The position numbers and the translations under genes are program-made. Positions 18,203 through 35,563 of a stretch of 35,563 nucleotides of DNA are shown in pieces. The notes beneath the pieces are model-generated. The model was given only the letters and a program-made list of their open reading frames with translations, made no database searches and was not told the DNA's origin. The stretch's first letter is position 1, and every line of letters starts with the position of its first letter. Source of the DNA: an uncultured Verrucomicrobiota bacterium (GTDB taxonomy: Bacteria; Verrucomicrobiota; Verrucomicrobiia; Opitutales; Opitutaceae); contig CAJCBL010000287.1 of the NCBI GenBank assembly GCA_903960515.1, forward strand, positions 1-35,563. Reading direction: 5' to 3'.

Positions 18203-18208
18203 GGCGGG

Positions 18209-19974: not shown

Positions 19975-19981
19975 CCTTTCC

Positions 19982-20740
19982 ATGGAAAACGCCCCCCAGC
20001 CCAGCCCCACAGCCGCTACCGACGACGTGGTCATCGTCGATGTCCGCGATCCCGCCGACACCCTGCCCGCCCCTCCGGGCGATCTCCTGCCGGGCGCGCT
20101 CCGAGTAGACCTGCAGATACCGCTGCTCGACGCCAACGACCGGCGGGCAGCCGAGAACCGGGCCACCTTCGCCGCCCGGCGCATCCAGGCTCTGAATTTC
20201 GTCTCCTCTCCCGGCGCCGGGAAAACCACCCTGCTCGGCCGCACCCTCGACGCACTCGCCGGCGTGATACCCTGCGCCGTCCTCGTGGGCGATCTGGAGA
20301 CGGCCAACGATGCCCGCCGCCTGCGCCGCCCCGGGGTGCCCGTCGCGCAGATCACCACCGGAGGCTGCTGCCACCTCGACGCCTCCATGGTGGCTCGCGG
20401 CGCGCAGGCGCTCACCCTCGACGGCGTTCGCCTCCTCTTCATCGAAAATGTCGGCAACCTGGTCTGCCCCGCCTCCTTCGACCTGGGCGAAAACCGCCGC
20501 ATCACCCTCGTCTCCTCCACCGAGGGCGAAGACAAACCGCTCAAATACCCGCCGATGTTCAGCAGCGCCCACGTCGTGATCCTGACCAAGATCGACGTCG
20601 CCGAGGCCATGGACTTCGACCGCGCCCTCGCCCGCGAAAACATCCGGCGCGCCGCGCCCCAGGCGACCATTTTCGAGGTATCCGCGAAAACCGGCGAGGG
20701 CCTCGACGCCTGGCTCTCCTATCTGCGGGCCATGCTCTGA
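19982..20740 (+). CDS. hypB: Hydrogenase nickel incorporation GTPase HypB (first copy, no N-terminal metal motif)
   Basis: HypB is a GTPase that powers nickel delivery. The 252-residue product has the P-loop GAGKTT at 78-83, the switch and metal motif GGCCHLDASMV, IENVGNLVCP, LTKIDV, and SAKTGEGLDAW. Unlike the second HypB in this window it lacks the N-terminal CxxCGC and any histidine-rich stretch, so it can bind nickel only at the GTPase-domain Cys/His site. ATG 19982 follows the hypA stop by 7 bases; the same frame is open further upstream inside hypA but without family similarity. Its stop is followed 3 bases later by hypF. Confidence 0.95.
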   Translation: MENAPQPSPTAATDDVVIVDVRDPADTLPAPPGDLLPGALRVDLQIPLLDANDRRAAENRATFAARRIQALNFVSSPGAGKTTLLGRTLDALAGVIPCAVLVGDLETANDARRLRRPGVPVAQITTGGCCHLDASMVARGAQALTLDGVRLLFIENVGNLVCPASFDLGENRRITLVSSTEGEDKPLKYPPMFSSAHVVILTKIDVAEAMDFDRALARENIRRAAPQATIFEVSAKTGEGLDAWLSYLRAML

Positions 20741-20743
20741 ACT

Positions 20744-23152
20744 ATGTCCGACTCGCCGCAAGACCCGGCGGATTGCGACCACCTCATCACCGTCGCCGGA
20801 ACGGTCCAAGGCGTGGGGTATCGCCCTTTTGTCGCGCGCGTCGCCACGCGCCTGGGTATTCGCGGCTGGGTGCGCAACGATCTCCACGGAGTTCAGATCC
20901 GGGCTGGGGCCGCGAGCCCGGCGCTGGATACCTTCACCCGCGCGCTGCAAGAAGAAGCCCCTCCAGCCGCCTGCGTCACCGCGGTTACCGTGCATCCGAT
21001 CACGGCCCATAGCCGCGACCTGCCCACGGCTGGCAGCGTTTTCGAGATTCTCGCCAGCCCGGAATCCGCCGGCGCCGCGACCACTTCCGCCACTCCCGAC
21101 CTCGCGCTCTGCGACGACTGCCGCCGCGAACTCCTCGATCCGCACAATCGCCGCCACGGATACCCGTTCATCAACTGCACCAACTGCGGCCCCCGCTACT
21201 CCATCCTCCTCGAACTGCCGTACGACCGGCCCCACACCACGATGCACACCTTCGCGATGTGCCCGGAGTGCGCCCGCGAATACCATGACCCGGCCGATCG
21301 CCGCTACCACGCCCAGCCCAACGCCTGCCCGGTGTGCGGTCCCCGCCTCGAACTACTGGTCTCCGCTGGCCAACGCCTTGCCACCCACGACGCTGCGCTC
21401 ACCGCCGCGGTCGCTGCCCTCCTCGCCGGCCGCATCGTGGCCGTCAAAGGCATCGGCGGTTTCCACCTCATGGTCGACGCGACCAACGACGCCGCCGTGC
21501 GCGAGCTACGCCGCCGCAAACACCGCGAGGAAAAGCCGCTGGCCGTGATGTTCCCCGATCTCGCCGCAGTGCGCACTGTAGCCGAGGTGCCGCCGGAATC
21601 CGCCGCTCTCCTCCAGTGCCCTGCCGCGCCCATCGTGCTGGTTCGGGGAAGAGCGCCCGCCGATCGATCGGTTCCGACCGATCGGTCCGATGCCGCCGCT
21701 GAGGCCCTCGCCGCCGCCCCCCTCGCGCCCTCCATCGCGCCCGACAATCCCTGGATCGGAGCCCTTCTTGCGTACTCGCCGCTCCACCTCCTGCTTCTCG
21801 CCCGCGTAGGCCGTCCCCTCGTCGCCACCAGTGCCAACCTTTCCGAGGAACCACTCTGTACCGACAACACCGAGGCACTCAACCGCCTCCGCGGCATCGC
21901 CGATTGCTTCCTCGTCCACGACCGCCCCATCGCACGGGCGGTCGACGATTCCCTGTTACGCCCTGCCTTCGACATCCCGCCGATCGTCCTGCGTCGCGCC
22001 CGAGGACTCGCTCCTGCCTCCTTTGCTCTGCCCTCGCCCGCCTGTGGCGGCGAGCCGCTCCTCTGCGTTGGCGGACACATGAAAAACACCGTCGCGCTGG
22101 CCACCGATTCCTCCGTAGTGCTCAGCCCGCACATCGGCGATCTGGCTACCGTCGCCTCGCAACAGGCCTTCCAACGCCACATCGAGTGGCTCATCTCGCT
22201 CCAGCGCACGCATCCCAGACGCATCGCCTGCGATGCCCACCCCGACTACGACTCCACCCGCTACGCTCTAGCCTCTGGTCTCCCGGTCACCACGGTTCAA
22301 CATCACCTGGCACACGTCTTCGCCTGCCTCCTTGAGCACAACGGCGGTCCCGATCAGGTGCTCGGCGTGGCGTGGGACGGCACCGGTTACGGGGGCGACG
22401 GCACGATCTGGGGCGGCGAGTTTATCCACGTCGACCGCGCTGCCAGCACCGCCCGTCGCGTGGCCTGCCTGCGCCCCTTCCGCCTGCCTGGAGGCGATGC
22501 CGCCATCCGCGACCCACGCCGCAGCGCGCTGGCCCTGCTGTATGAGCTCCACAACGGCGAACGCGAACCGCTCCGCCGCGCAGCCACCGACCTGGGCCTC
22601 CCCCCAGCCGAGGCGGAAACCCTGCTCACCCTCCTCGCCAGCGGTGCCCACGCTCCGGTGACAACCAGCGCCGGCCGACTCTTCGACGGCGTCGCCGCCC
22701 TTCTAGGACTGTCCCAGCGCAACAGCTTCGAGGGGCGGGCGGCCATGCAACTTGAGTTCGCCGCCGACCGTGCCACAGGCGAAACCGGCGCGCTGCCGTT
22801 CACCGTAGCACCCGTGGCTCGAGCGAGCGGCACGCGCCTTGAGCTCGACTGGCGCCCGGCAATCACCGAGCTACTCGCGCTGCGCGCCACCCAACCCGCC
22901 GACGTCCTGGCCGCCCGCTTCCACCGCGGCTTGTACTTTGCGATCACCGACGTGTCGCGAGCGATCGGAGTCGGTGCCATCGCGCTCAGCGGAGGCTGCT
23001 TCCAGAACCGCCTTCTGCTTGAAGGTACGCGCAACCACCTCGCCTCCGCCGGCTTCAGCGTTCTCTGCCACCGCGAACTCCCACCCAACGACGGGAATCT
23101 CTCCGCTGGTCAGGCCCTCGCCGCCCGCTTGGGCATCACGGATGTTCTGTAG
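20744..23152 (+). CDS. hypF: Carbamoyltransferase HypF
   Basis: HypF turns carbamoyl phosphate into carbamoyl-adenylate and passes the carbamoyl group to HypE for cyanide-ligand synthesis. The 802-residue product has every family domain. The acylphosphatase-like start (VQGVGYRPFV) is at about 15-100. Two zinc fingers follow (CDDC...CTNC and CPEC...CPVC, about 122-205). The YrdC-like domain carries the KHREEKPLAVMF element. The Kae1-like C-terminus has HHLAHVFACLLEH and WDGTGYGGDGTIWGGEF. It is slightly longer than usual, mainly a 20-residue Ala/Asp-rich insert after VRGRAPADRS. It ends the plus-strand hyp operon and is convergent with hypB2. Confidence 0.96.
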   Translation: MSDSPQDPADCDHLITVAGTVQGVGYRPFVARVATRLGIRGWVRNDLHGVQIRAGAASPALDTFTRALQEEAPPAACVTAVTVHPITAHSRDLPTAGSVFEILASPESAGAATTSATPDLALCDDCRRELLDPHNRRHGYPFINCTNCGPRYSILLELPYDRPHTTMHTFAMCPECAREYHDPADRRYHAQPNACPVCGPRLELLVSAGQRLATHDAALTAAVAALLAGRIVAVKGIGGFHLMVDATNDAAVRELRRRKHREEKPLAVMFPDLAAVRTVAEVPPESAALLQCPAAPIVLVRGRAPADRSVPTDRSDAAAEALAAAPLAPSIAPDNPWIGALLAYSPLHLLLLARVGRPLVATSANLSEEPLCTDNTEALNRLRGIADCFLVHDRPIARAVDDSLLRPAFDIPPIVLRRARGLAPASFALPSPACGGEPLLCVGGHMKNTVALATDSSVVLSPHIGDLATVASQQAFQRHIEWLISLQRTHPRRIACDAHPDYDSTRYALASGLPVTTVQHHLAHVFACLLEHNGGPDQVLGVAWDGTGYGGDGTIWGGEFIHVDRAASTARRVACLRPFRLPGGDAAIRDPRRSALALLYELHNGEREPLRRAATDLGLPPAEAETLLTLLASGAHAPVTTSAGRLFDGVAALLGLSQRNSFEGRAAMQLEFAADRATGETGALPFTVAPVARASGTRLELDWRPAITELLALRATQPADVLAARFHRGLYFAITDVSRAIGVGAIALSGGCFQNRLLLEGTRNHLASAGFSVLCHRELPPNDGNLSAGQALAARLGITDVL

Positions 23153-23272
23153 GTGTCACGACCGCCAAGGCCGATGACCCAATCGGTGCGCCAAGCCAGC
23201 CATCGGCTGTGCGGGTGAAAAGAGTGCGCGCCGGAGGTAGCACCGCCCCACGATGCGACAGAATGGTTGCCC

Positions 23273-24073
23273 TCAGCGGCTACCAGGCAGCAGCGCTTCG
23301 AGATGGGCGATCCACGCGTCGAGACCTTCGCCGGTGCGCGAGGATAACTCGAAGATGGCGGCACCGGGCGCCACTTGCGCAACTGCGGCACGGGCCCGGA
23401 CCCGATCGAACCCAGCAGGCTCGGCCAAATCGGTCTTGGAGAGCACCACTGCCTCGGCACCGTTGAAGATGGGCGGGTATTTGAGGGGTTTGTTTTCCCC
23501 TTCTGTGGAGGCGAGCAGCACGATGCGATGGGCCTCCCCGAGGTCGAACGAGGCTGGGCATACGAGGTTGCCCACGTTTTCGATGAAGAGCAGGCGAATG
23601 CCGGTGCGGGGCAAGGTTTCCAGGGCAGCGGCGACCATGCGCGCGTCGAGGTGGCAAACCGTGCCGGTGGTGATTTGCACGACGGGCGCGCCAGTGGGGC
23701 GCAGCGCCTCGGCATCGGCCTGGGTTTCGAGGTCGCCCACGATCACCGCGCAACCAATACGCGGGTGGAGGCGTTCGAGCGTGCGGCGCAGGAGGGTGGT
23801 CTTGCCGGAACCGGGCGAGGAAACGAGGTTGAACGCGATGATGCCTCGCTCGTTGAACAGCGTGCGGTTGCTCTCCGCCTGCCGCTGGTTGGCATCCAAG
23901 ATCGGCTGCACATGCCCTTGGTTACCGTGGCGATGCCAGCTATGGCTGCCATCGTCTGCGGTATGGGCGTGCCAGCCGTCGTCGGCAGTGGCGAACGGCG
24001 CTTGGGCGTGTCCTGAACTAGTAGAGTGGACACGGAAGGATTCGGATTCGGCGCAACCGCAGTCTCGGCACAT
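23273..24073 (-). CDS. hypB: Hydrogenase nickel incorporation GTPase HypB (second copy, with metal motif and His-rich region)
   Basis: A 266-residue HypB. The N-terminus carries the high-affinity nickel motif MCRDCGC (C2, C5, C7) followed by a His-rich stretch to about residue 60, which could store nickel. The GTPase domain has GSGKTT, TGTVCHLDARMV, IENVGNLVCP, LSKTDLAE, and SSRTGEGLDAW. The start is fixed by MCxxCGC at 24073. It is 28 bases after hypA2 and is the last gene of operon 2 (large - small - HAF - hypA2 - hypB2). Its presence with the extension-free hydrogenase suggests a dedicated nickel-loading pair; whether it also serves operons 1 and 3 is unknown. Confidence 0.95.
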   Translation of the reverse strand: MCRDCGCAESESFRVHSTSSGHAQAPFATADDGWHAHTADDGSHSWHRHGNQGHVQPILDANQRQAESNRTLFNERGIIAFNLVSSPGSGKTTLLRRTLERLHPRIGCAVIVGDLETQADAEALRPTGAPVVQITTGTVCHLDARMVAAALETLPRTGIRLLFIENVGNLVCPASFDLGEAHRIVLLASTEGENKPLKYPPIFNGAEAVVLSKTDLAEPAGFDRVRARAAVAQVAPGAAIFELSSRTGEGLDAWIAHLEALLPGSR

Positions 24074-24101
24074 GATGGAAGAAGGATTGGAGGAGAAGGT
24101 T

Positions 24102-24446
24102 CTATCCGGAGGAGGGAGTTACACCGCAGAGGAAGAGATCCCGGCTGGCATGCAAGAGGCGAAGGGGGCCGCCGCAACGGGGACAGACAAATTCGAGGCG
24201 GTCGTGGTCAATTTCGCCACAGGTGATGCAGGCGAAGCGCGCGGGTTCGGTTTCAAACACCAGTGCGGAGCCCTCGGCCACCGTGCCGGCCGCCAGTGCG
24301 GAGAAGGCAAACTCCAGCGCTTCGGGGGCCACTCCGGAGAGCAGGCCGACCCGCAACCGGACCTCCTGCAACCTGGGCCAGTCGCGCCGGGCGGCGAGGG
24401 TCGTGAGCTGCCCGAGGAGCGCCTCGCAGATGGCGGCTTCGTGCAT
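24102..24446 (-). CDS. hypA: Hydrogenase nickel incorporation protein HypA (second copy)
   Basis: A 114-residue HypA. The start is set at ATG 24446 because nickel binding needs MHE at the very N-terminus (MHEAAICEALL); an upstream ATG at 24473 would add nine residues and block this. The zinc site is CITC...CPRC near 70-90. It lies 7 bases downstream of the HAF-repeat gene and 28 bases upstream of hypB2. It differs clearly from the first HypA at 19630, so the copies likely came with different hydrogenase operons. Confidence 0.94.
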   Translation of the reverse strand: MHEAAICEALLGQLTTLAARRDWPRLQEVRLRVGLLSGVAPEALEFAFSALAAGTVAEGSALVFETEPARFACITCGEIDHDRLEFVCPRCGGPLRLLHASRDLFLCGVTPSSG

Positions 24447-24453
24447 CGGAGTG

Positions 24454-25764
24454 TCAGGGGCCGGCCCGGACAACGAGGCGGTAGAAACAGGCGGGGGCGT
24501 CGATGGTGGTGTCGATGAACTGCTCCAGGCCGTCGCCGGTCACCGAGGCGCCGAGATCGGTCCAGGGAACGCGGGCAAGATCGGTGGTCTTCTGTACTTG
24601 GTAGATGAAGCCGGCATCGGTGGGGAAGCGCAGGTACACGGTGTTGGCCTCGATCTGGATCTGTACGGCCGGAGTGGGGATATTCGCGAGCAGGGCGCGC
24701 AGGCCGGTGAGGCGCCAGAGGACCTGGGTCTGATCCGGCGCGATGGCGTCGCCGGCGATGGTGTCGCCATCCTCCGAGAGCACCGGGCGACAGTAGGTGA
24801 AGCGGTAGTTGTCGAGCGGAAGGCCCGCAGCGCGGGTGATGGCCGAGAGGCTGCGCATGCCTCGGGAGGGTTCCCAGACGAAGACCTCACCGTCGGCGGC
24901 GGAGGTGCCCAGACCCACGACGATAGTGCCGTCGCCACTCACCGCGGTGGCGCTAGATTGATACGCACCACCGGGCAGATCGCCGAGCCCGACCATGCCG
25001 GTACCGGTCGTCCAGCGGAAGGCCTCAATCCCCAGGCCGGAGTGTGAGCGGCCCACCACGACAGCTCCGTCGGCTGAGACGGCGAGCGCCTCTGAAAAGA
25101 CGCGTCCGCCGGACAGATCTCCGAGCGAGACCATGGTGCTGCCGGATGGTGCCCGAAACGCCACGACACCTGCGGCGCTGGTGGCCCAACCGACGATGGT
25201 GGTGCCATCGGCCGAGATGCGGGTGGCCTCGGAGTGGGTGAGCCCGCCGGGCAGATCTCCGAGGGAGGTGGCTACGCCGGTGGCAGTGGACCAACGGGCG
25301 GCGGTGCCGTAGGCAGTGTTGCTGTTGGACGTGGCGTTGCGGCCGACAGCGATCGTGCCGTCGCGGCTCACATCGAGGGCGACGGCGTTGTTGAGTGAGG
25401 TGAGGGCGCGCGGTGCACCGTTGACCCAGCAGGCGGCGCGACCGGTGGAGTTGAAACGCCAGCCGGCGAGCACGGTGCCGTTGGCCGAGACACCCCAGGC
25501 GGCGCCGGCGGCAGGGGTGGTGGCAGTATCTAGACGTCGGGCACCGTCGAGAGGCGTCCATTTCACAGCCTGGGGCCCCCAGGAGGCCAAGGACCAGCCG
25601 GCGGCGGCTACGGTGGCGCCGTCGGCCGAGATGGCGCCGATCTGGCCCATGCCGACGAAGTCCCCGGAAGCGGGGAGCACTTCAAAGGTCGCGGCCGAGA
25701 GGCCGGTGGCGAGCGCCGCAGGGAGCAGGACGCGGAACAGGGCGAGACGGAGCGGGGAGTTCAT
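24454..25764 (-). CDS. Secreted HAF-repeat beta-propeller-like protein coupled to hydrogenase 2
   Basis: A 436-residue exported protein. A signal peptide (about 1-24, ending LSAA) leads to about six repeats of roughly 50 residues with SADGxxVVG and LGDLPGG elements, the style of HAF-repeat extracellular proteins that likely fold as a propeller. The last 70 residues (VYLRFPTDAGFIYQVQKT, FYRLVV) resemble the C-terminal module common in secreted verrucomicrobial proteins. There is no CxxCH and no obvious metal site. ATG 25764 overlaps the stop of the hydrogenase small subunit (ATGA), so translation is coupled, and hypA2 follows 7 bases later. A HAF protein inside a hydrogenase operon is unusual. 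It could hold or dock the exported enzyme, but its function is unknown. Confidence 0.8.
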   Translation of the reverse strand: MNSPLRLALFRVLLPAALATGLSAATFEVLPASGDFVGMGQIGAISADGATVAAAGWSLASWGPQAVKWTPLDGARRLDTATTPAAGAAWGVSANGTVLAGWRFNSTGRAACWVNGAPRALTSLNNAVALDVSRDGTIAVGRNATSNSNTAYGTAARWSTATGVATSLGDLPGGLTHSEATRISADGTTIVGWATSAAGVVAFRAPSGSTMVSLGDLSGGRVFSEALAVSADGAVVVGRSHSGLGIEAFRWTTGTGMVGLGDLPGGAYQSSATAVSGDGTIVVGLGTSAADGEVFVWEPSRGMRSLSAITRAAGLPLDNYRFTYCRPVLSEDGDTIAGDAIAPDQTQVLWRLTGLRALLANIPTPAVQIQIEANTVYLRFPTDAGFIYQVQKTTDLARVPWTDLGASVTGDGLEQFIDTTIDAPACFYRLVVRAGP

Positions 25765-26675
25765 TGGGCGACGGGCCAATGGTGGAAGCTGGATTGGGCG
25801 AAATTTTGGGAGGTGCACCCGATGCAGGGCGCATGGGAATGCAAGCAACTGGTGGCGACACCGTTCCAGCCGCGGGACACGCAGTCGGCGTAGGTGGAAG
25901 GGCCTTTGCAACCGTACTCCTCCATGCAGCCCGGGGGACCGGAGGGGCTGGCGTCCTCCATTTCGCGCAGGGGGCACATACTATGGACGGTCTTGCTGTA
26001 GAATTTCAGCGGGCGGAGCTGGCTGTCGAGCGGCGGCATGCCGTATTGGATAAGGTGAACCAGGGTGCCGATCATCCAGTCGGGATGAGGCGGGCAGCCG
26101 GGGACCCGGACAAAGGGCTTGCTGATGCCTCGGGACTGTAGGAACGAGATGGCGTCGACTGCACCGGTGGGGTTGTTCGGGGCGGCAGGGATACCGCCAA
26201 AGGCGGCGCAACTGCCCACGGCCACGATGTGGCTGGCGCCTTGGGCGGCGCGCTGAAGATGATCGCCGAAATTCTCCCCGCCGAAACGGCACGCACTGGG
26301 GATGGTGACGGGCACCGCCCCCTCCACCACCAGCAGGTATCCACCTTGGGCGATGGTGTGGTTGACCAGATCAACGGCTGGCGCGCCTTGGATGGTGGAA
26401 AGCGTCTGGTGAAACTGCAGCGAGAGGTGCCGAGTGAGCACAGAAAGCGGCAGCACCGGATAACTGTTAAGAAGGGAAATGGAGCAGCCGGAGCAATTCG
26501 AGCCCTCCAGCCAGAGCACGGGCGCGCGGCCGGTGGAGAGGGCCTGAATCGAGGCAGCCAGCGAAGTCACAGCGCTGCTGCCCAATCCCCACAAGACGGC
26601 TACGCGGCCGGCCAGGGAGAGGAAGTCGCGCCGGGACATGCCGGCGGGCGAATCGGTGTGAGAGGAGGGGGGCAT
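25761..26675 (-). CDS. [NiFe]-hydrogenase small subunit 2, Tat-exported, no membrane anchor
   Basis: A 304-residue electron-transfer subunit. The Tat motif SRRDFLS is at 14-20. The proximal [4Fe-4S] ligands are C61, C64, C156 and C194; glycine holds both positions that are extra cysteines in O2-tolerant enzymes. The distal cluster has H231, C234, C250 and C256. The medial cluster has C265, C277, C284 and C287; C277 stands where ordinary group 1 enzymes have proline, so a [4Fe-4S] cluster is expected as in [NiFeSe] hydrogenases. There is no C-terminal membrane helix; the protein ends FHHWPVAQ. It follows the large subunit by 13 bases. Its electron acceptor is not encoded nearby. Confidence 0.94.
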   Translation of the reverse strand: MPPSSHTDSPAGMSRRDFLSLAGRVAVLWGLGSSAVTSLAASIQALSTGRAPVLWLEGSNCSGCSISLLNSYPVLPLSVLTRHLSLQFHQTLSTIQGAPAVDLVNHTIAQGGYLLVVEGAVPVTIPSACRFGGENFGDHLQRAAQGASHIVAVGSCAAFGGIPAAPNNPTGAVDAISFLQSRGISKPFVRVPGCPPHPDWMIGTLVHLIQYGMPPLDSQLRPLKFYSKTVHSMCPLREMEDASPSGPPGCMEEYGCKGPSTYADCVSRGWNGVATSCLHSHAPCIGCTSQNFAQSSFHHWPVAQ

Positions 26676-26688
26676 GGCGAGGAGTCCG

Positions 26689-28206
26689 TCAGTGGACGGC
26701 GCAGGAGAGGCAGGGATCGAAGGAGCGAACGACGCGCACGGTCTCGACTGGCGAAGTGGGATCGGCCACTGGGGTGCCTACGAGGGCCTGCTCCATCGCA
26801 CCGGGCTGGCCGCGATCGTCGCGGGGCGAGGCGTTCCAAGTAGTGGGTACCACGCACTGGTAACGGGAGATCACGCCGCCGCTCACCTGCATCCAGTGAC
26901 CGAGGGCGCCGCGAGCCGCCTCGGTCAGGCCGATGCCCTGACAGGAGGAGGGAATTGTGAAAGGGGTGAACCCGATGGCGTCGGCCGTGAGCTGCTCGAG
27001 CCACTGTTCGCAGCGGTCGGCGATGATCTTGGTCTCGACTGCGCGGGCGGCATGGCGGCCCATGACGGAGTTGAGTTCGCCGAGGGAGCGGCCGGTGGCG
27101 AGCAGGAGGGCGTCGACCTGAGCGGTGAGCGCGGGGTTGGTGCCGCTCTGGTAGGCGATGAGGACGCGGGCCAGGGGGCCCACTTCCATGACGTGCCCGT
27201 TGTAGCGCGGGGCCTTGATCCAAGAGTAGGCGCCAGCCTTGTCGGGGGCGGGAGTAGTGTCGCCGGATAGCGGATGCTGGCCCGAGCCGGAGGAGAACCA
27301 GGAGCAGCCCACATCCTCGGTGATGCGACTCTGGTCGAGCGCACTGTAGACGCCCCCGGTGAGCACGCCGGAGGGCAGGAGCTTGTTGGTGCCGGCGGCG
27401 TCCTCGTGGAAAACGCCGAATGCGAGGTAGTTTCCGGGCCCGGCGCCGATGCCGTAGTACGAGGAATACGCGGACGCCACGGCGAGCACATCGGGGATGT
27501 AGCAGCGCTCGATGAAGTCGCGCAGGCGCTGGATGAGCGAGATGCAGTCGGCGATGATGCGCCCGCCAACGCGGATCGTGGCGCCGCCCGGGATGATGGA
27601 GGCGACGTGGGGCAGCTTGCCTCCGAGGAGGGCGCCGAGCTTCGAGGCTTCGCTGCGCAGCTCGAGGGCCTGGATGTAGTGGCGGAGCGCGCCGAGATTG
27701 AGTTCGGGATCGGCGGCGTAGTCGCCGTTCATCCGCGGAAGAAAGGGCGCGGCGGGATAGTAGTTGGTGGAGCGCAGTTCGGACTGCACCCAGCCCTTCA
27801 GGTAGCCCAGCGCCGGATCTTGGCCTTGATACTTGAGCACAGCGGTCACGTCGATGAAGTCGATCGCCGAGAGCGTGTAGAAATGGAGGATGTTGGACTG
27901 GATGAAATTCGCCGCAGCCACGATGTTGCGGATGAGGCGGCCATTGGTGGGCGGGGTGATGCCATAGGCGGCGTCCTGGGCAAGTACGGACGCGATGGCG
28001 TGCTCGACCGGGCACACACCGCAGATGCGTTGCGTGATGTACTGGGCGTCGAGCGGCTTGCGGCCTCGAAGGATGGCCTCGAAGCCGCGGAAGGATTCGC
28101 CGATGGACTCGGCGGAGGTCACCCGGCCTTGGTCGACCTGCACCCGGATGGAGAGGTGGCCTTCGATCCGGGTAATGGGATCGATCAGAATGGATTGCGC
28201 TGCCAT
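26689..28206 (-). CDS. [NiFe]-hydrogenase large subunit 2, without C-terminal extension
   Basis: A 505-residue catalytic subunit with the N-terminal motif RICGVCPVEHA (C62, C65, H69), TTWNASPRD, and the C-terminal DPCLSCAVH (C499, C502, H505). The stop TGA follows His505 directly, so the protein is made in its mature form and no protease step is possible. It is a close paralog of the large subunit at 28694: long stretches such as SVLAQDAAYGITPPTNGR are identical. Here the large subunit precedes the small, the reverse of the usual group 1 order. It is the first gene of operon 2 and divergent from operon 3. Confidence 0.96.
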   Translation of the reverse strand: MAAQSILIDPITRIEGHLSIRVQVDQGRVTSAESIGESFRGFEAILRGRKPLDAQYITQRICGVCPVEHAIASVLAQDAAYGITPPTNGRLIRNIVAAANFIQSNILHFYTLSAIDFIDVTAVLKYQGQDPALGYLKGWVQSELRSTNYYPAAPFLPRMNGDYAADPELNLGALRHYIQALELRSEASKLGALLGGKLPHVASIIPGGATIRVGGRIIADCISLIQRLRDFIERCYIPDVLAVASAYSSYYGIGAGPGNYLAFGVFHEDAAGTNKLLPSGVLTGGVYSALDQSRITEDVGCSWFSSGSGQHPLSGDTTPAPDKAGAYSWIKAPRYNGHVMEVGPLARVLIAYQSGTNPALTAQVDALLLATGRSLGELNSVMGRHAARAVETKIIADRCEQWLEQLTADAIGFTPFTIPSSCQGIGLTEAARGALGHWMQVSGGVISRYQCVVPTTWNASPRDDRGQPGAMEQALVGTPVADPTSPVETVRVVRSFDPCLSCAVH

Positions 28207-28693
28207 GTGGGGAATGGGCTGGGGAAAGCGGGCTGTAGCAGTTGCTGGCTTAGATCGCTCGGTGCTTCAAGCAATCCTCGGAGGTTGCAAACTATTGTGA
28301 AACCGGCGTATCCCGGCAGAGAAGTTGCAACGACGGCACCAGAGCACCGGCCCGATGCGACCCCACTTCCCCCGAAACCACATCCATTCGTCGTCGCTCG
28401 AATGCGGATGGGGCAAGGGGACTGCGGTGTAGCGAAGTTCCACCGCCGCCCCGCCCGCGTCCAGTGTCGGGCCCGCGAAAGCGCGTCCTCTAGCAGATTT
28501 TGCCTAAACCCCGTCCTGATCCGGCCGATAACCCGCTCGCCGACACCACTCCGCGAGGCCCCAACGCCCCGCGCCGTCGTTGTCGGCCCGAGTTGGTGGC
28601 TCGTGGCGAAGGTGCGCTTGCGGCCCTTCATCATCGGTTGATCGACCGGCCCTCTTCGTTTTCCGCCCGCCCTAACGCTTTCCCGACTCGCCC
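28207..28693. promoter_or_regulatory. Shared 487-base region between the two divergent paralogous hydrogenase operons
   Basis: This is the only space for promoters of operons 2 (minus) and 3 (plus). No gene is evident in it. GTTGCAA occurs twice in the same sense (28285-28291 and 28324-28330), in the left part near operon 2. A possible sigma-54 element lies at 28326-28341 on minus (separate entry). No standard promoter for operon 3 can be named. Confidence 0.5.
28326..28341 (-). promoter_or_regulatory. Possible sigma-54 (-24/-12) element ahead of hydrogenase operon 2
   Basis: On the minus strand TGGTGCCGTCGTTGCA keeps the GG-N10-GC spacing and the TTGCA of the -24/-12 consensus, with three mismatches in the rest. 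It lies about 120 bases before the start of the large subunit. Sigma-54 control of uptake hydrogenases is known in Proteobacteria; here it is only a sequence resemblance. Confidence 0.25.
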
Positions 28694-30208
28694 ATGAAAG
28701 AGACGATCTCCGTCAGCCCCGTAACGCGCATCGAAGGCCACCTCGGGGTCAAAATTGAGACCGACAACGGACGCGTCGCCAGCGCCCAGGTCGTGGGCGA
28801 GATGTTCCGCGGTTTCGAGCAGATCCTGCGGGGCCGCGACCCGCTCGACGCCCAGCAAGTCACCCAGCGCATCTGCGGGGTGTGTCCGGTCGAGCATGGC
28901 ATCGCCTCCGTCCTCGCCCAGGACGCCGCCTACGGCATCACCCCGCCGACCAACGGCCGCATCGCCCGCAACCTCGCCCAGGCGGCCAACTTCATCACCT
29001 CGCACATCACCCATTTCTACCTGCTGTCCGGGCTGGACTTCGTCGATGTGGCACAAGTTACCACCTACGCGGGTGCCGACCCCGCACTGGTCGGCCTGCG
29101 CGACTGGGCGAAATCGGAGATCGCCAACAACACCGTAAACGCCGGCGGACCCTTCCTGCCGCAGTTCCCCGCCCAGCTCATCCGCGACCCTGCGATCAAC
29201 CTCGGAGTGCTGCGGCACTACCTTGAGGCCATCGAAATCCGGCGCGACGGCCACAAGCTCGGCGCCCTCTTCCTGGGCAAACTGCCCCACGCCGCCGCGC
29301 TCATCCCGGGCGGTGTCACCGAAAAGGTGAGCGCCATCCTGATCGCCTCGGCCCGGGCACTGCTGGGCCGGCTGCGGACCTTCATCGACAACGTCTACCT
29401 GCCCGACGTGGTGACTGTGGCCGGTGCCTTCCCCGCCTATTTCGAACTCGGCCGCGGCTGCGGCAACTTCCTCTCCTTCGGGGTCTTCCCGGAAAGCGAC
29501 TCGGGCGGCTCGCCCTTCCTGCCCGCCGGAGTGCTCATCGACGGCAAACTCCAACCGGTGGACACCGCCGCGATCACTGAGGACGTGCGCTACTCGTGGT
29601 ATTCCTCCGCCTCCGGCCGCCGGCCCACCGAGGGCGAGACCACTCCCGACGCCACCAAATCCGGTGCGTATTCGTGGCTCAAAGCCCCCCGCTACGCCGG
29701 TCGTGCGCTCGAGGTAGGCCCGCTCGCCCGCCTGCTCGTCGCCTACCACGACGGCCGCAACCCCGCGGTAAAAACCGCCGTCGACGGCCTGCTGAAAGCC
29801 CTCGACCGCAGTCCCGCCGATCTCGTATCCGTACTGGGCCGCCACGCCACCCGCGCACTTGAGGCGAAACTGTTGGCCGACCGTTGCGCCGAATGGCTCG
29901 ACCAACTCGTGCCCGACCAGCCCACGAACCGCGACTTCACCATCCCCGCCTCCGGCTCCGGCGTCGGCCTCACCGAGGCGGCCCGTGGCGCGCTCGGCCA
30001 CTGGATCGAGATCCGCGACCACAAGATCGCCAACTACCAGTGCGTCGTCCCCACCACTTGGAACTGCTCTCCCCGCGATGACCGCGGCGAACCCGGCCCC
30101 ATGGAGCAGGCGTTGGCCGGTACTCCCGTCGCCGATGCGAAAGCCCCGATCGAGGCCGCCCGCGTGATCCGCTCCTTCGACCCCTGCCTCGCCTGCGCCG
30201 TGCACTGA
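28694..30208 (+). CDS. [NiFe]-hydrogenase large subunit 3, without C-terminal extension, in operon with MCPs
   Basis: A 504-residue catalytic subunit. N-terminal motif RICGVCPVEHG (C61, C64, H68), TTWNCSPRD, and C-terminal DPCLACAVH (C498, C501, H504). As in its paralog at 26689, the TGA stop immediately follows His504, so there is no peptide to cleave. It has no signal and would be carried out with the Tat-bearing small subunit at 30324. That gene begins 115 bases later, with a heptanucleotide repeat in the gap. ATG 28694 gives the family N-terminus (SPVTRIEGHLG). The operon continues into two chemotaxis receptors, which makes a sensory role a serious possibility. Confidence 0.96.
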   Translation: MKETISVSPVTRIEGHLGVKIETDNGRVASAQVVGEMFRGFEQILRGRDPLDAQQVTQRICGVCPVEHGIASVLAQDAAYGITPPTNGRIARNLAQAANFITSHITHFYLLSGLDFVDVAQVTTYAGADPALVGLRDWAKSEIANNTVNAGGPFLPQFPAQLIRDPAINLGVLRHYLEAIEIRRDGHKLGALFLGKLPHAAALIPGGVTEKVSAILIASARALLGRLRTFIDNVYLPDVVTVAGAFPAYFELGRGCGNFLSFGVFPESDSGGSPFLPAGVLIDGKLQPVDTAAITEDVRYSWYSSASGRRPTEGETTPDATKSGAYSWLKAPRYAGRALEVGPLARLLVAYHDGRNPAVKTAVDGLLKALDRSPADLVSVLGRHATRALEAKLLADRCAEWLDQLVPDQPTNRDFTIPASGSGVGLTEAARGALGHWIEIRDHKIANYQCVVPTTWNCSPRDDRGEPGPMEQALAGTPVADAKAPIEAARVIRSFDPCLACAVH

Positions 30209-30271
30209 GGCCACGCGACGAATACTAGGCAGCCACAGAGCATCCGCCTCCGAAAACGCCCTCGCGCCGCC

Positions 30272-30313
30272 GCTCCGCATTCCGCACTCCGCACTCCACA
30301 TTCCACATTTCGC
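30272..30313. repeat. Heptanucleotide tandem repeat between large and small subunit genes
   Basis: Six 7-base units in a row with consensus AYTCCRC (GCTCCGC, ATTCCGC, ACTCCGC, ACTCCAC, ATTCCAC, ATTTCGC). I have the impression that such heptamer arrays are common between genes in Verrucomicrobiota and environmental genomes and often give false reading frames on the other strand. Here it sits 10 bases before the small-subunit start, where it could influence translation of the small subunit and the receptors downstream. Confidence 0.75.
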
Positions 30314-30323
30314 AAACCCACCC

Positions 30324-31244
30324 ATGGAGCCGATCACCCGCCGCTCGTTCCTCACCCTCGGCCTGCGCCTGGCCGCCGTCATGGGCCTGGGCGCCGCAGC
30401 AGCCCCCGCGATGGCCGAGGCGCTGGAGCGTATCGTCCGCGGCCGCGCACCCGCACTCTGGCTGCAGGGGCAATGCTGCTCGGGCTGCTCGATCTCGCTG
30501 CTCGACTCCGAACCGCTCGGGCCCGACCAACTGATCACCCGCCACCTCGCACTGGCCTTTCATCAGACACTTTCCGGCGCCACGGGCCACCAGGCAGTAG
30601 ATACCGTCAACCGTGCGATCAGCGCAGGCGGCTACATTCTCATCGTCGAGGGCAGCGTGCCGGTAGGCATCCCCCGCGCCTGCATCTTCGGCGAGGAAAC
30701 CTTTGCCGACCAACTCACCCGCGCCGCCCGCGCCGCCAAGGCGGTGGTCGCCGTGGGCACCTGCGCCACCGCAGGCGGCATCCCCGCCGCCGAGGGCAAC
30801 GCCACCGGCGCTCTGAACGTACCCGCTTTTCTCAAACAGGCCGGCATCGCAGTGCCGTGCATCTCCATCCCCGGCTGCCCGGCACACCCCGACTGGATCG
30901 TGGGCACGCTGGCGCACGTGCTCCAATTCGGCCTGCCCCCGCTCGACACGCTCGGCCGGCCCAAGGCATTTTTCAGCAAACTGATCCACGATCAGTGCCA
31001 ACGCTTCGCCGACTACGAACGCGAGAACTTCGCCCAAAACTTCGGTGACGACGGCTGCCTGTTCCGCCTCGGCTGCGCCGGCCCGATCACCAAAGCCGAC
31101 TGCAACGTCCGCCAGTGGAACGGCGGCACCAATACCTGTATCAAGGCCGGCGCGCCCTGCATCGGCTGCGCCTGGGAGGGCTTCGCCGCCAAACGCGATT
31201 TCCCCTTCTACCTCAAGAACGGCCAGCTCCGAAAGGATGGCTGA
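30324..31244 (+). CDS. [NiFe]-hydrogenase small subunit 3, Tat-exported, no membrane anchor
   Basis: A 306-residue electron-transfer subunit. The Tat motif TRRSFLT is at 5-11. The proximal cluster has C52, C55, C147 and C185, with an additional neighbouring Cys51. The distal cluster has H222, C225, C245 and C251. The medial cluster has C260, C272, C279 and C282; C272 replaces the usual proline, predicting a [4Fe-4S] cluster. The end ([14 protein letters not shown]) is hydrophilic, so the dimer should be soluble in the periplasm or held by a partner. Its stop lies 8 bases before the first MCP start. With no cytochrome b or c gene nearby, the heme-bearing receptor domains are the closest candidate electron partners. 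Confidence 0.95.
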
Positions 31245-31252
31245 CGGCTCGC

Positions 31253-32773
31253 ATGAAGCTCCACGTCAAACTCACGCTCTCCCTGCTGTCGGGGTTGCTG
31301 GTCATCGTGCTACTGGCCCAGACCTTGCAACTGCTGCGCAGCTCGGCCGCGCTGCAGACCCAATCCAGTGATGATCTCAAACGCCTGGAAGCCCGCGAAT
31401 GGCAGAGTGCCGAGAACATCGGCCAGACCGTCGAATACGCCGTCGCCGGTTCCCTGGAACGCGGCGAGATGGTGAAGTTCGAAAAACTCCTCGCCGCCCA
31501 ACGCCAGATCAAGGGCCTGCATGAGTTTTCCCTCTACGACGAGGGTGGCATCGCCCTCTACTCCTCCGAGCCGTCCTTCGTAGGTAAGAACCTGCCGGCC
31601 GACGTGAAGCAGCAACTAAAGGACTCGCCCAAACGGCTCGCCCGCCGCAGCGCCGACGCTTTCGAAATCTATCAACCGCAGATTGCCACCGCCGAGTGCC
31701 TGCGCTGCCACACTGGCTGGAAGCAAAACAGCATCTGTGGCACCACCGCCTTCCGCTTCTCCAGTGCCGCACTCACCGAAGCGGAAACCCGCGCCGCCGC
31801 TTCACTCGCGAGTCTGCGTCGCGATGGGATGGTTACCACCGCATCCACCGCACTGGTGATCATCGTGGTGTTCATCGGCCTGGCCTACTTCGTCGTCCGC
31901 AGACTCGTCACCCGCCCCCTGACCAGCGTCATGGACGAGCTCACCGCCGCATCACAACAGGTCACCGCCGCCGCCTCCCAGATCCTCTCGTCGAGCGAAA
32001 CGCTCGCCGACGGTGCCAACAAGCAGGCTGCCTCGCTGGAGGAAACCAGTTCTTCCCTCGTCGAAATCGCCTCGATGACCAAGCGCAGTGCCGAGACCCC
32101 CCAGAAGGTGAAGGACGCCACCGACCAGACCGTCCAAGCCGGCACTGCAGGGACCGTCGAAATGCAGGCCATGAATGAGGCGATCGCCGGCATCAAGACG
32201 GCCAGCGATGACGTCGCCAAGATCCTCAAGACCATCGACGAAATCGCCTTCCAAACCAACATTCTCGCGCTCAATGCCGCCGTCGAGGCCGCCCGCGCAG
32301 GTGAAGCCGGAGCCGGGTTCGCTGTAGTCGCGGAGGAAGTTCGCAGCCTTGCCCGCCGCAGCGCCGAGGCAGCCCGCGAGACCGCCGCCAAAATTGAAAA
32401 CTCCGTACAGCGCAGTACCCGCGGCGTGCAGATCAGCGCCGAGGTTTCCAAGCGCCTGCACGAGATCGTCGACCGAGCCCGACAGGTGGATACCCACCTG
32501 AGCGGCATCGCCTCCGACTCCCGCGAGCAGAGCCAGGGTATCGAACAGATCAGCACCACAGTCGCCTCCATGGACGGCGTCACCCAGAACAACGCCTCCA
32601 CCGCGGAAGAAACCGCCAGCGCGGCGGTGCAGCTCCACTCCCAGGCCGAGGCGCTGCTGCGCGCGGTGGACCGCCTCGGCGATCTGGTGGATGGCGACGG
32701 CCAACGCCCGGCACCGCCGCAGCCGAAGACCAAGACGCCCAAGCAGCAAGCCGCCCGGCACCTAGTCGCATGA
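31253..32773 (+). CDS. Methyl-accepting chemotaxis protein 1 with periplasmic Tll0287-like heme domain
   Basis: A 506-residue receptor. Transmembrane helix 1 is near 8-25. A periplasmic domain (about 26-192) of the Tll0287-like/DUF3365 type follows, with the c-heme motif CLRCH at 149-153. Helix 2 is near 195-215. No HAMP domain is evident; the chain goes straight into a helical signalling domain whose tip (about 327-350, [18 protein letters not shown]) is the canonical CheA/CheW-contact hairpin. ATG 31253 gives [10 protein letters not shown], matching the start of its twin; the open frame upstream lies inside the hydrogenase gene. An AAGGATGG stretch precedes it. It lies 8 bases after the hydrogenase small subunit. 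Likely signals are redox state, O2 or, by context, H2. Confidence 0.93.
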
Positions 32774-34470
32774 AACTGCACACTAAGCTCACACTTGCCC
32801 TGCTCTCCGGCCTGCTGGTCATCGTGCTGCTGGCCCAGACCTACCAGCAACTGCGCAGCTCGGCCGCGCTCAAGGGGCAAACCGGGGAAGACCTCAAGCA
32901 GCTCGAAGAGCGCGAATGGAAGAGCGCCGAGAACATCGGCCGCACCGTGGAATACGCGGTAGCCGGTTCCCTCGAACGCGGAGAGATGGCGAAGTTCGAA
33001 AAACTCCTCGCCGCCCAACGCCAGATCGAGGGCCTGCTGGAGTTCTCCCTCTACGACACCTCCGGCGTAGCACTCTATTCCTCCGATCCCTCCCTGGTGC
33101 GCAAAAGCCTGCCCTCGGACGTGCTCAAGCAACTCCAGTCATCTCCTCAACGCCTCACCCGCCGCAGCGCTGTAGCCTTCGAAATCTACCAGCCCCAGAT
33201 AGCAGTGGCTGAGTGCATCCGCTGCCACACCGGCTGGAAGGAGAACTCACTCTGCGGCACCACCGCGTTTCGCTTTTCCAGCGCGGCCCTCGCCCAGGCC
33301 GAGGCCCGCTCCGCCGCCTCGCTCGCGGGCCTGCGTCGGGAGGGGCTGCTCACCACCGCTCTCACCGCGCTCGTAATCGTCGCCGTCTTTGTCGTACTGG
33401 CCCACCGGGTTGTCCGCTGCATGGTCGTGCGCCCCTTGGCCAAACTCGCCGCCGGGCTCGGCCAGATCGCCACCGGCGACACCACCACCCGCATCGCCAT
33501 CGCCACGCGCGACGAGATCGGCGACCTCGCCGCCACCGCCAACCACATGGCCGAGTCGCTCGACGCCAAGGCCCTCCTCGCCCACCAGATCGGCGAGGGC
33601 GACCTCACCCAGGAGGTCCAGCTCACCTCCGCGCAGGACCGGCTCGGGCTGGCGCTCCAGACTATGGTGACAAATCTACGCGACGTCGTCGCCAACGTCC
33701 GCTCCGCCGCCGAGAATGTCGCCACAGGCAGCGGCCAGTTGACCGGCACCGCCCAGAGCATCTCCACCGGCTCCGCCTCCCAGGCAGCCTCCGTCGAGGA
33801 GGTCTCCGCATCGATGACACAATCCAGCGCGAGCATTGTGCACAACACCGCCAGCGCCCGGCGCACAGAGGCCATCGCCGTGCAGGCAGCCACCGACGCC
33901 ACCACCGCAGGCCGCTCGGTCACCCAGACCGTGCACGCGATGAAGGACATCGCCGGCCGCATCGCCATCATCGAAGAGATCGCACGGCAGACCGACCTGC
34001 TCGCCCTCAACGCCGCCATCGAAGCCGCCCGCGCCGGCGAGCACGGCAAGGGCTTTGCGGTGGTCGCCGCCGAGGTGCGCAAGCTCGCCGAGCGCAGCCG
34101 CAACGCCGCTGTCGAGATCGGCCGGCTCTCCGGCTCAAGCGTTGCGGTGGCCGAGCAGGCTGGCGACATGATCGAGCAGCTTGTCCCCCGTATCCGCGAG
34201 ACGGCGCAACTGGTGCAGGAGATCGCTGCCGCCAGCGAGGAGCAGAACACAGGCGCCACCCAAGTGACCCAAGCCGTGCAGGCCCTCGACAAGGTCATCC
34301 AGCAGAACGTCACCGCCTCCGAGCAGATGGCGTCCTCCGCCGAGGAGTTGGCGGGCCAGGCCGAACAACTCCAGAGCGCAATCGCCTATTTCCATACCAC
34401 CGCCGACAGCGCCATGGCCGCGCCGCGAGCATCCGCGCGGAGCGAACGGATACCAGTCGGGCAGGATTAG
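32770..34470 (+). CDS. Methyl-accepting chemotaxis protein 2 with periplasmic Tll0287-like heme domain
   Basis: A 566-residue receptor whose start overlaps the stop of MCP1 (ATGA), so the two are translationally coupled. Residues 1-210 are a duplicate of the MCP1 sensor (77 percent identical by hand count without gaps) with CIRCH at 149-153. Here helix 2 is followed by a HAMP domain ([20 protein letters not shown]) and a second HAMP-like stretch to about 300, then a signalling domain with tip [18 protein letters not shown] near 400-425. The output half differs strongly from MCP1, so sensor and output evolved separately. Both would report the same type of signal but may couple differently to the CheA array or form heterodimers. 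Confidence 0.93.
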
Positions 34471-34566
34471 GCGGCTCCGGGTGCCTCGCTTGCCGGCCAC
34501 GCTGCCACGCGCAACGCCCCGGCACTCGCGGGCTCACGGCCTCGCGACATTCCATCGAAGGCAGCG

Positions 34567-34589
34567 AATCCCAGCCGGCTTGGGATTTT
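34567..34589 (+). terminator. Probable intrinsic terminator of the hydrogenase-MCP operon
   Basis: A 7-bp stem, AATCCCA / TGGGATT (arms 34567-34573 and 34581-34587), extended by a G-T pair, leads into TTTT. It lies about 100 bases after the MCP2 stop. The T-run is short, so strength is uncertain. Confidence 0.5.
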
Positions 34590-34946
34590 ACCCACCTCCG
34601 GCCCACATTGAGGTTCGGGACGCAGCAAGGGATGTCGCCGACGTGGGTGGGTGTTCGTATGCTGCTTTATAGCCTGAATCGAGGATACCGTTCTGCGATG
34701 CGAGTGCCCCCGCCCATCGGTTCTATTACCCGAAGCTGCGGCTGAGCGGGTTGGCCGCATTTTGTCTCCCATTGCTGTTGGATTGTTTGTGGTATGGTGC
34801 CCCGATTCTTTCGGGGGCTCGCTGGTCGAAGGGAGCCGAGCAGTCTGGCATGATCGGCGGCCTTGGGTGTTTTCGCTCCCAACCCCGGGGAACCGAGTGT
34901 GCATCCACTTAGGGCTCCGAGCCTAGCGAATCGGTCGCCTTTTCCG

Positions 34947-35030: not shown

Positions 35031-35563
35031 ATGCAAAGTATCGTCAAAGCCGCCGCCCTTACCGCTCTTGTCACCCTCGCCTGTAGTTCACCGGCGCAGC
35101 AACTCAAAGGCAAGAAGGTCTACTATATCAACGCCTACCACACCGGATATGCTTGGAGCGATGGCGAGGAGCAAAGCGTTATAAAGGGATTGGAACCTCT
35201 GGGCGTTGAGGTGAAAATCGCGCGGATGGACACCTATAACGACAAAACGCCGGAGCACCTTGCAAAAGTATCCGCCGAATGTCAGGCGACCATCGATGAA
35301 TGGAAGCCGGATGTTGTCGTGGTATCCGACGATGCACCAATGAAGGCGGTCTACAAGCCGTTCTATAAGGACAAGGATGTGCCTTTCGTATTCTGCGGGG
35401 TGAACTGGACGGCCGAAGCTTATGGCGTCCCCAACAAGAATGTAACTGGCATGCTAGAGATTTGCCCAGTGCAGGACCTGGTGGCGGAAATGAGGAAGAT
35501 CACGCCAGGAAAGACCATCGGATTCCTAGCCGCAGATGCCTTTACCCCACGCAAAGATGGCGA
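35031..35563 (+). CDS. ABC_sub_bind-like periplasmic protein, 3' end outside the window
   Basis: The frame is open from ATG 35031 to the end of the window (177 residues seen). A signal peptide (about 1-22, cleavage likely after SPA) precedes KKVYYINAYHTGYAWSDGE, which is the start of the ABC transporter substrate-binding-like family (ABC_sub_bind) that also forms sensor domains of kinases and receptors. Strands such as PDVVVVSDDAPMK and VPFVFCGVNWT support this. An in-frame ATG at 34989 would add 14 residues before the signal. Codon use is less GC-rich than in the genes to the left. Whether it is a free binding protein or the sensor part of a larger signalling protein cannot be seen. Confidence 0.75.
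   Translation, partial: MQSIVKAAALTALVTLACSSPAQQLKGKKVYYINAYHTGYAWSDGEEQSVIKGLEPLGVEVKIARMDTYNDKTPEHLAKVSAECQATIDEWKPDVVVVSDDAPMKAVYKPFYKDKDVPFVFCGVNWTAEAYGVPNKNVTGMLEICPVQDLVAEMRKITPGKTIGFLAADAFTPRKDG

Follow-up and report, generated by a model that had tools for sequence, protein, structure and literature searches.

Why would a hydrogenase be encoded in one array with two chemoreceptors? The question arises in DNA of an uncultured Verrucomicrobiota bacterium of the Opitutaceae (contig CAJCBL010000287.1 of assembly GCA_903960515.1), a stretch of 35,563 nucleotides that we call the window. On its + strand, at 28694-34470, genes for the large subunit (LSU) and small subunit (SSU) of a [NiFe]-hydrogenase are followed by genes for two methyl-accepting chemotaxis proteins (MCP1 and MCP2). 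Our answer, to which we assign a probability of about 0.7, is that the four genes encode a hydrogen chemoreceptor system, in which the hydrogenase dimer would be the H2-detecting subunit of both receptors. The parts of this proposal that are shown computationally are the array, the export signal, the cluster and heme ligand residues, the recurrent linkage, the chemotaxis (che) genes around some of the loci and the co-divergence of sensor and hydrogenase.

The layout described in an initial annotation, which was made from the letters alone, was confirmed together with its coordinates. The four genes run in one direction, MCP1 starts 8 bases after the SSU stop, and the MCP1 stop and the MCP2 start share an ATGA overlap; LSU and SSU are spaced by 115 bases. 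Each receptor has two hydrophobic segments flanking a single periplasmic domain, with a CxxCH motif at residues 149-153. Pfam finds a HAMP domain in MCP2 and none in MCP1. The two are 76% identical across their first 223 residues, and so appear to be tandem duplicates whose output parts differ. The array contains no cytochrome gene and no maturation protease gene, and a promoter scan of 28150-34900 gave no sigma-70-like site. In the genome as a whole there are seven CheW-domain matches, two of them in open frames of CheA size (843 and 775 amino acids), and two flagellin matches, which makes a motile output plausible.

The window LSU carries both CxxC ligand pairs, scores 631.8 bits against NCBIfam NF033181 (cut-off 600) and ends exactly at DPCLACAVH, without a C-terminal extension. 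The maturation extension is likewise absent from the whole MCP-linked clade, where 79/79 LSUs stop directly after DPCxxCxxH (56 from heme-type loci including the window's, 13 from heme-less loci including the broken L087, two linked to a HAF-repeat protein, three without MCP and five cut by a contig end). Four ordinary LSUs in the same set have 15, 15, 22 and 23 extra C-terminal residues; a fifth, L075, with an in-frame TGA at that place, was left out of this count. Lack of the extension has been published for the H2-sensing groups 2b and 2d, and the examples named in the part of the source available to us include no group 1 enzyme (PMC7294309). We read this shared trait as a hallmark of sensory-type LSUs.

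Both the RxCGxC and the DPCxxC pattern are matched in 82 of the 84 rows of our LSU tree, the two others being L103, which has RICGLC, and L075. In the latter, an LSU from a Bacteroidetes metagenome-assembled genome (MAG; L075:415-2030), the TGA occupies the place of the first Cys in the last motif, which is what a selenocysteine enzyme would show. The tree was built with a quick method (LG+G4) and its outgroup did not form one side of a branch. Within the clade it also places the cytochrome-b-type pair; the branch leading there is 1.45 long, and we consider the placement a long-branch artefact.

The SSU has a twin-arginine translocation (Tat) leader, TRRSFL, whose R6 and R7 are invariant in 77 SSUs. 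Hydropathy detects no C-terminal membrane segment in the window SSU or in any of the 77 aligned SSUs, and finds one at residues 361-379 of the ordinary SSU at 18209-19438. The annotated combination of a Tat signal with neither membrane anchor nor cytochrome gene thus held. An energy-conserving uptake role for the window array was rejected, as anchor, cytochrome, array maturation protease and C-terminal extension are all missing. The SSU positions that bind the proximal, medial and distal clusters are well kept: 10/12 are invariant in 77/77 sequences, among them the distal-cluster His and Cys, and the remaining two are found in 74/77 (C55) and 75/77 (C260); the window SSU has 12/12. A further cysteine, Cys272, is present in 77/77 aligned clade SSUs versus 2/20 SSUs counted as ordinary. 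By analogy with NiFeSe enzymes it suggests a fourth ligand for the medial cluster, which would then contain four irons. The solved structures nearest to both subunits are periplasmic NiFeSe enzymes (2wpn, 1cc1 and 4kl8) of the Desulfovibrio type. When tested for an [FeFe] catalytic domain, the window hydrogenase matched PF00374 only. A plasmid collection held 124 records with SSU matches, all below 60% identity, and the eight that were listed carry a hydrogenase small subunit annotation.

The receptors had been described as carrying a Tll0287-like domain with a c-type heme site. The CxxCH motif and the fold stand; membership of the Pfam family PF11845 (DUF3365) does not and was rejected, since MCP1 reaches only 13.5 bits (E=0.1) against a cut-off of 24.1 and MCP2 has no match. 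Our sensor alignment comprises 55 sequences, namely those of 53 loci and the window's two, with L045 and L065 left out as cut by contig ends. PF11845 is not among the families that these match at E<=0.01, and no family is matched consistently (PF21563, Mcp40H-20_sensor, in 2/55). A search of the PDB with the sensor profile returned no credible match, the best being a designed protein at E 0.077. An AlphaFold2 model from the alignment (predicted local distance difference test, pLDDT, 91.4; predicted template modelling score 0.78) has a long helix at 3-69 that begins in the membrane, followed by a Cache-like core in which the CxxCH lies on a short helix (147-150) between strands 136-144 and 161-170. 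VIA-align superposes the model on the Tll0287 structure 5b82 with Z 10.2 and a root-mean-square deviation (rmsd) of 2.7 over 112 residues; as several other Cache domains score level, this is evidence of fold and not of function. Foldseek ranks WalK sensor domains first; its matches also include two heme chemoreceptors of Geobacter, GSU0935 (E 1.9e-5) and GSU0582 (E 4.1e-4), at rmsd 13.5-14.6, and the chains of both form swapped dimers. GSU0935 is not among the 50 VIA-align matches listed, which we do not take as absence. By its model, then, the sensor does match a heme-Cache (Cache/PAS-like) fold.

If the linkage meant something, it should not be confined to one contig. A contig search with the window's two LSUs gave 148 confirmed candidates, of which we kept 80 loci. 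In 55/80 the hydrogenase has a CxxCH MCP beside it (no further than -400 to +500 bases from SSU or LSU), so the recurrence in related genomes on which the initial annotation had staked its idea was found, and we reject a coincidental neighbourhood. Of the remaining loci, 14 have an MCP without CxxCH, eight have none and three lie at a contig end. Twelve of the 14 carry a homologous heme-less sensor, L060 is cut before the motif, and L033, whose SSU ends at the contig end, has only an upstream MCP without this sensor. The gap between SSU and receptor, with receptor starts estimated from the sensor alignment, has a median of 15 bases in 53/55 loci; it is at most 50 bases in 44/53, and ten overlap. 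By record title the linked loci include Desulfobacterota, Verrucomicrobiota, Planctomycetota, Omnitrophota, Magnetococcales, Calditrichota and Riflebacteria. By NCBI rank the heme-type loci fall into Thermodesulfobacteriota (21), Myxococcota (11), Pseudomonadota (9), Verrucomicrobiota (5), Riflebacteria (2), Omnitrophota (1) and Calditrichota (1), plus unplaced records; as these are mostly MAGs under loose labels ('Deltaproteobacteria bacterium', for example), the phylum names are rough, Myxococcota above all. A named strain with the array is Desulfocarbo indianensis SCBM (L059). At ordinary hydrogenase loci of the window's order we found an MCP in 0/17 (16 from other genomes and one from the window's; flanks of about 1.5 kb).

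Genome searches from the side of the sensor used flanks of about 1.5 kb, so that 'unlinked' means no hydrogenase within that stretch unless a larger one was fetched. In the phylum searches the best 7-8 sensor candidates (three for the LSU) were scored per genome. Among 345 genomes of Desulfocarbo's phylum (the Desulfobacterota sample) the sensor profile matched in 46, with 25 places at 130 bits or more, and 17 of these 25 adjoin hydrogenase genes. Of the weaker places we examined 17 (L127-L138 and L146-L150), and three are linked (L127, L128 and L129) and 14 not. The 26 genomes reached through hydrogenase loci, for which 9 to 38 first-look candidates were scored each, have a sensor match in 23 cases and a single one in 18. 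The heme-less sensor, sought in 392 Planctomycetota genomes, turns up at eight places in seven of them, 8/8 beside SSU and LSU; this sample overlaps the genomes from which the query alignment came (G388 and G389 for certain). Four of 387 Verrucomicrobiota genomes match the sensor, two of them with linkage (the window genome and G875) and two without (G228 and G232).

Two further observations tie the hydrogenase to chemotaxis and to the sensor in particular. Using the proteins of L051 as probes against the sequence fetched around the 80 loci, we found CheA or CheW in 14/80: CheA in 12 (truncated by the contig end in L081, encoded on the opposite strand in L071 and L076) and CheW alone in two (L054 and, weakly, L062). 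Pfam confirms CheA and CheW in L051, L032, L055, L079 and L076, and CheB in L051, where the gene order is CheA, CheW, LSU, a receiver-domain protein, SSU, heme MCP, second MCP and CheB. L079, L081-L084, L090 and L094 are closely related; together with L032, L051/L054, L055, L071 and L076 they make at least six lineages with che genes. Proximity to che genes is common among MCPs and accounts for part of this linkage, although the loci were selected by their hydrogenase. The second observation comes from pairwise distances at the 42 loci with all four segments complete. Their correlation is 0.948 for LSU and SSU, 0.869 for SSU and sensor and 0.438 for SSU and signalling domain; the difference between the last two is 0.445 (bootstrap 95% range 0.277-0.590). 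As the sensor tracks hydrogenase divergence more than the signalling domain does, it appears to stay with its hydrogenase while the output parts are swapped. Common descent adds to such correlations, but it affects both receptor halves alike.

How might the enzyme speak to the receptor? R70, G71, M73, L94, C149, R151, C152 and H153 are invariant in the 55/55 aligned heme sensors. The 12 heme-less linked sensors have M73, C149 and C152 in 0/12 and H153 in 1/12; C149 is replaced by Met, and L94 by an aromatic residue, in 12/12. Met73 and CxxCH are thus kept or lost together, which means that Met73 behaves like a distal ligand, and it is found in 16/16 unlinked heme sensors as well. By analogy this suggests Met/His ligation as in Geobacter GSU0935. 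The H2 couple lies at about -414 mV at pH 7. Potentials of -251 mV for GSU0935 and -156 mV for GSU0582 have been reported, along with Met60 and His144 as the GSU0935 ligands, binding of the Met in the reduced form and a redox-driven switch (PMC8396549, in the part available). Both potentials lie above that of H2, so reduction of such a heme by H2 is feasible.

Arg151 behaves differently. It is present in 71/71 linked heme sensors (one pair of these rows is identical across the compared core) and 12/12 linked heme-less ones, and in 2/16 unlinked heme sensors (L126 and L151 only). The ligands thus follow the heme, and Arg151 follows the hydrogenase, which makes it a candidate hydrogenase-docking residue. 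W156 is found in 61/71 linked versus 1/16 unlinked heme sensors. R70 is found in 71/71 versus 4/16, yet is Pro in 8/12 heme-less sensors, and tracks neither heme nor hydrogenase cleanly. The heme-less sensors form one clade (support 99) inside the heme type, and this nesting makes heme look ancestral, although the forks concerned have support of only 83-92. Their model (pLDDT 79.6) has the same order of secondary-structure elements as the heme type, and the two profiles match with probability 99.9 (E 1.9e-37). With a linked clade of this kind, heme reduction cannot be the only mode of coupling.

We propose the following chain, the simplest that uses all conserved parts. The hydrogenase dimer would be exported to the periplasm by Tat, and its NiFe site would oxidise H2; the electrons would leave along three iron-sulfur clusters, the last being the SSU's distal cluster. 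The SSU would dock at the Arg151 side of the heme motif in the receptor's Cache domain, the heme would be reduced, and Met73 would then bind the ferrous iron as the distal ligand opposite His153. Met73 is predicted to sit just past the long first helix, which extends out of the membrane, and a pull on this helix could alter CheA activity. Periplasmic oxidants would reset the heme, so that the receptor might weigh H2 supply against local oxidant. Heme-less receptors would use a second, contact-based mode, perhaps docking without the electron step. We infer the docking, the electron transfer, the ligand switch and the behavioural response with its sign. The earlier idea that H2 is read for chemotaxis is strongly supported by the comparison, through the multi-phylum linkage, the che genes, the co-divergence and the extensionless LSUs; heme reduction probably is the route by which H2 is reported to the chemoreceptors, and as the sole coupling it fails on the 12 heme-less sensors. 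We also lean, with less assurance, toward a broader picture: a class of periplasmic sensory [NiFe]-hydrogenases with a dedicated chemoreceptor output in several phyla, in which the electron would be the signal, passed through a c-type heme and a redox-gated methionine switch that would drive swimming, and from which one nested clade would have lost the heme and signal by contact.

Several of our observations weigh against a hydrogen chemoreceptor that works through heme. The linkage persists in the heme-less sister clade, so heme is dispensable, and the candidate residues were chosen after inspection among 226 positions of related sequences. Eight of the 80 loci have no intact MCP beside the hydrogenase. 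Three of these (L066, L075 and L080) are ordinary hydrogenases in which the SSU gene precedes that of the LSU and, by reading, maturation-type genes are close by. In L105 the partner is another protein, in L087 a frame-broken array is followed by fragments of an MCP, and no MCP stands at L043, L058 or L068. Eight of the 25 strong Desulfobacterota sensor places are not beside hydrogenase genes: seven have none in the stretch read, and at L145 a small-subunit gene lies at a distance of about 4.8 kb. Six of these eight are in genomes that also have a linked copy (G418, G620, G722 and G740), and G575 and G597 have no hydrogenase in 12 and 9 kb (L157 and L158). Two Verrucomicrobiota genomes hold three sensor places without a hydrogenase within about 1.5 kb, and the hydrogenase type itself is rare in the window's phylum (2/387 genomes at E<=1e-150).

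Such points feed other explanations. The H2 signal could pass by contact: as is proposed for regulatory hydrogenases and their kinase, a change in shape or redox state of the hydrogenase would make the SSU push on the docked Cache domain, and the heme would only tune or gate the response. The 12 linked receptors that lack heme and Met73 yet keep the fold, the adjacency and, in 12/12, Arg151 would fit this well, as would LSUs that lack the maturation extension like those of regulatory hydrogenases (PMC7294309, as far as available). As a general account we nevertheless consider contact rather unlikely: heme motif, Met and His are invariant in 55/55 heme sensors, the distal-cluster ligands in 77/77 SSUs fit an electron exit, and the heme-less type is the single nested clade described above, with heme seemingly ancestral. 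A looser relation, in which the hydrogenase feeds general periplasmic carriers, the receptors read redox state and the genes are neighbours through a shared anaerobic role, seems to us decidedly improbable. It can draw on GSU0582 and GSU0935, which are presented as redox sensors and with no hydrogenase named in the part of the source at hand (PMC8396549), and on related heme sensors away from hydrogenases, one of which (L155) stands beside a multiheme cytochrome gene. Against it stand the sensor's far closer match, compared with the signalling domain, to hydrogenase divergence, the contrast between linked and unlinked sensors at Arg151 and W156, and the absence of a cytochrome gene from the window's array. 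Finally, the receptors could sense nitric oxide, with the hydrogenase a separate uptake enzyme of the same operon. A related sCache_heme domain, that of Pseudomonas azotoformans, binds nitric oxide with high affinity, and such domains fused to signalling parts have been proposed as nitric oxide sensors, which also counts against our proposal (PMC12889525, in the portion available). We give this explanation almost no weight, as nitric oxide sensing predicts neither linkage in several phyla nor heme-less receptors nor che genes at some loci. The hydrogen chemoreceptor remains the reading we prefer.

Table 1. Features of the hydrogenase-chemoreceptor array, in window coordinates.
Feature	Coordinates	Strand	Basis and remarks
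[NiFe]-hydrogenase large subunit (LSU)	28694-30208	+	504 aa; Pfam PF00374 (NiFeSe_Hases), 506 bits
[NiFe]-hydrogenase small subunit (SSU)	30324-31244	+	306 aa; PF01058 (Oxidored_q6) and PF14720 (NiFe_hyd_SSU_C)
Chemoreceptor MCP1	31253-32773	+	506 aa; MCPsignal; two membrane segments, periplasmic heme Cache domain
Chemoreceptor MCP2	32770-34470	+	566 aa; HAMP and MCPsignal; sensor type as MCP1, signalling part different
MCP1 Met73 codon, proposed distal heme ligand	31469-31471	+	Sensor alignment; analogy with Met60 of GSU0935 (PMC8396549, available part)
MCP1 heme attachment motif C-L-R-C-H, residues 149-153	31697-31711	+	Arg151 is the proposed hydrogenase-docking residue
MCP2 heme attachment motif C-I-R-C-H, residues 149-153	33214-33228	+	Read in sequence
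Terminator-like hairpin 3' of MCP2	34737-34759	+	Consensus match only; 7 such sites versus 4.7 expected in 28150-34900

Other genes of the window include a divergent paralogous hydrogenase of the same clade at 24454-28206 (-), with LSU2 at 26689-28206 and SSU2 at 25761-26675. An ATGA overlap joins SSU2 to the next gene, which encodes a HAF-repeat protein (ATG at 25764) in place of an MCP; by sequence this looks like a partner swap. L105, from an Akkermansiaceae MAG, has the same trio, with a partner protein of 50% identity that also bears an autotransporter-type repeat. The region 12687-24473 holds Hyp maturation genes around an ordinary cytochrome-b-linked group 1 hydrogenase (16460-19438 and 15694-16542): HypC, HypD, an AIRS-domain HypE-like protein, HypF and a HycI-type protease. 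A maturation protease gene lies at 15193-15687, outside the array, and HypA- and HypB-like genes seem, by reading only, to be present twice (19630-20740, +; 23273-24473, -). At 35031-35563 (+) a protein with a signal-like leader, judged by eye, runs off the window end; the part read has no Pfam match at E<=0.01.

The sensor type is also met in other settings. In L151 (6627-9449) a linked-type heme sensor with the Arg motif forms part of a hybrid histidine kinase, together with two receivers and an Hpt domain, and its Omnitrophota genome (G387) also has a linked MCP array; through this kinase H2 might feed a two-component system. In L155 (5499-9847) the unlinked heme-sensor MCP adjoins a large gene for an MtrC/MtrF-like multiheme cytochrome, a hint that sensors of this type have other redox partners as well. 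In L087 (10554-13737), from Desulfothermus okinawensis, SSU and MCP of a heme-less-type array are frame-broken in the draft, by sequencing error or decay.

Hydrogen is one of the main currencies exchanged among anaerobes. Methanococcus maripaludis is reported to move toward H2 by chemotaxis (Brileya 2013, as cited in PMC4266047), the same is suspected of a sulfate reducer (PMC12004927), and our search of the open-access literature found no named receptor for this behaviour. The hydrogenase-linked receptors are a concrete candidate, with Met73, His153 and Arg151 as testable residues and the heme-less clade as a natural control. If the proposal is true, hydrogen taxis gains a molecular receptor, and enzymes can serve as ligand-detecting subunits of chemoreceptors.

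Group 2b regulatory hydrogenases are not known to have a Tat leader. These enzymes and those of group 2d, such as HoxBC with its kinase HoxJ in Ralstonia eutropha, likewise use a NiFe sensor subunit with an extensionless LSU (PMC7294309, PMC6978683), and they signal to kinases (PMC6978683, each source available in part). HoxBC is described as cytoplasmic and paired with a histidine kinase, whereas the window enzyme is predicted to be Tat-exported, is NiFeSe/group-1-like in sequence and is paired with periplasmic-sensor chemoreceptors; of the group 2b traits it shares the extensionless LSU and neither the cytoplasmic location nor the linked kinase. The extra medial-cluster cysteine is a trait of periplasmic [NiFeSe]-hydrogenases. 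These provide the closest structure for both subunits and share Tat export, but the window enzyme has Cys where they carry selenocysteine, no C-terminal extension, LSU before SSU and MCPs following.

On the receptor side, GSU0935, GSU0582 and DcrA of Desulfovibrio resemble MCP1 and MCP2 in joining a periplasmic Cache/PAS-like c-heme domain to an MCP output, with Met/His ligands in GSU0935; they are too distant for a PDB sequence match, and the part of the source available mentions no hydrogenase partner (PMC8396549). The sCache_heme/DUF3365/Tll0287 family (PF11845) shares the Cache fold and, by the AlphaFold2 model, the short CxxCH helix, but the window sensors fall below the Pfam threshold, and Tll0287 has Cys/His ligation where our conserved candidate is Met. 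A 2026 description presents sCache_heme domains fused to signalling parts as nitric oxide sensors; the word hydrogenase does not occur in its text, which also gives the Tll0287 ligands (PMC12889525).

The initial annotation knew of no described hydrogenase-MCP complex of this kind. We too found no description of a NiFe hydrogenase-chemoreceptor pair in the open-access literature (subscription journals lay mostly outside the search), but the novelty is qualified by two sources seen in part. HydDB lists [FeFe]-hydrogenase group C2 as 'Chemotactic (putative)', predicted to inform methyl-accepting chemotaxis proteins, which is an unrelated enzyme with a putative role and, in the sections available, no mention of a periplasmic heme receptor (PMC5037454). 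A 2025 neighbourhood survey tabulates an MCP cluster (87 genes) near [NiFe] LSUs, without discussing it in the part available (PMC12727194). Group 2b, [FeFe] C2 and PF11845 each differ from the window system in a defining feature, so it is a member of none of them, and we regard it as a separate form of H2-sensing hydrogenase.

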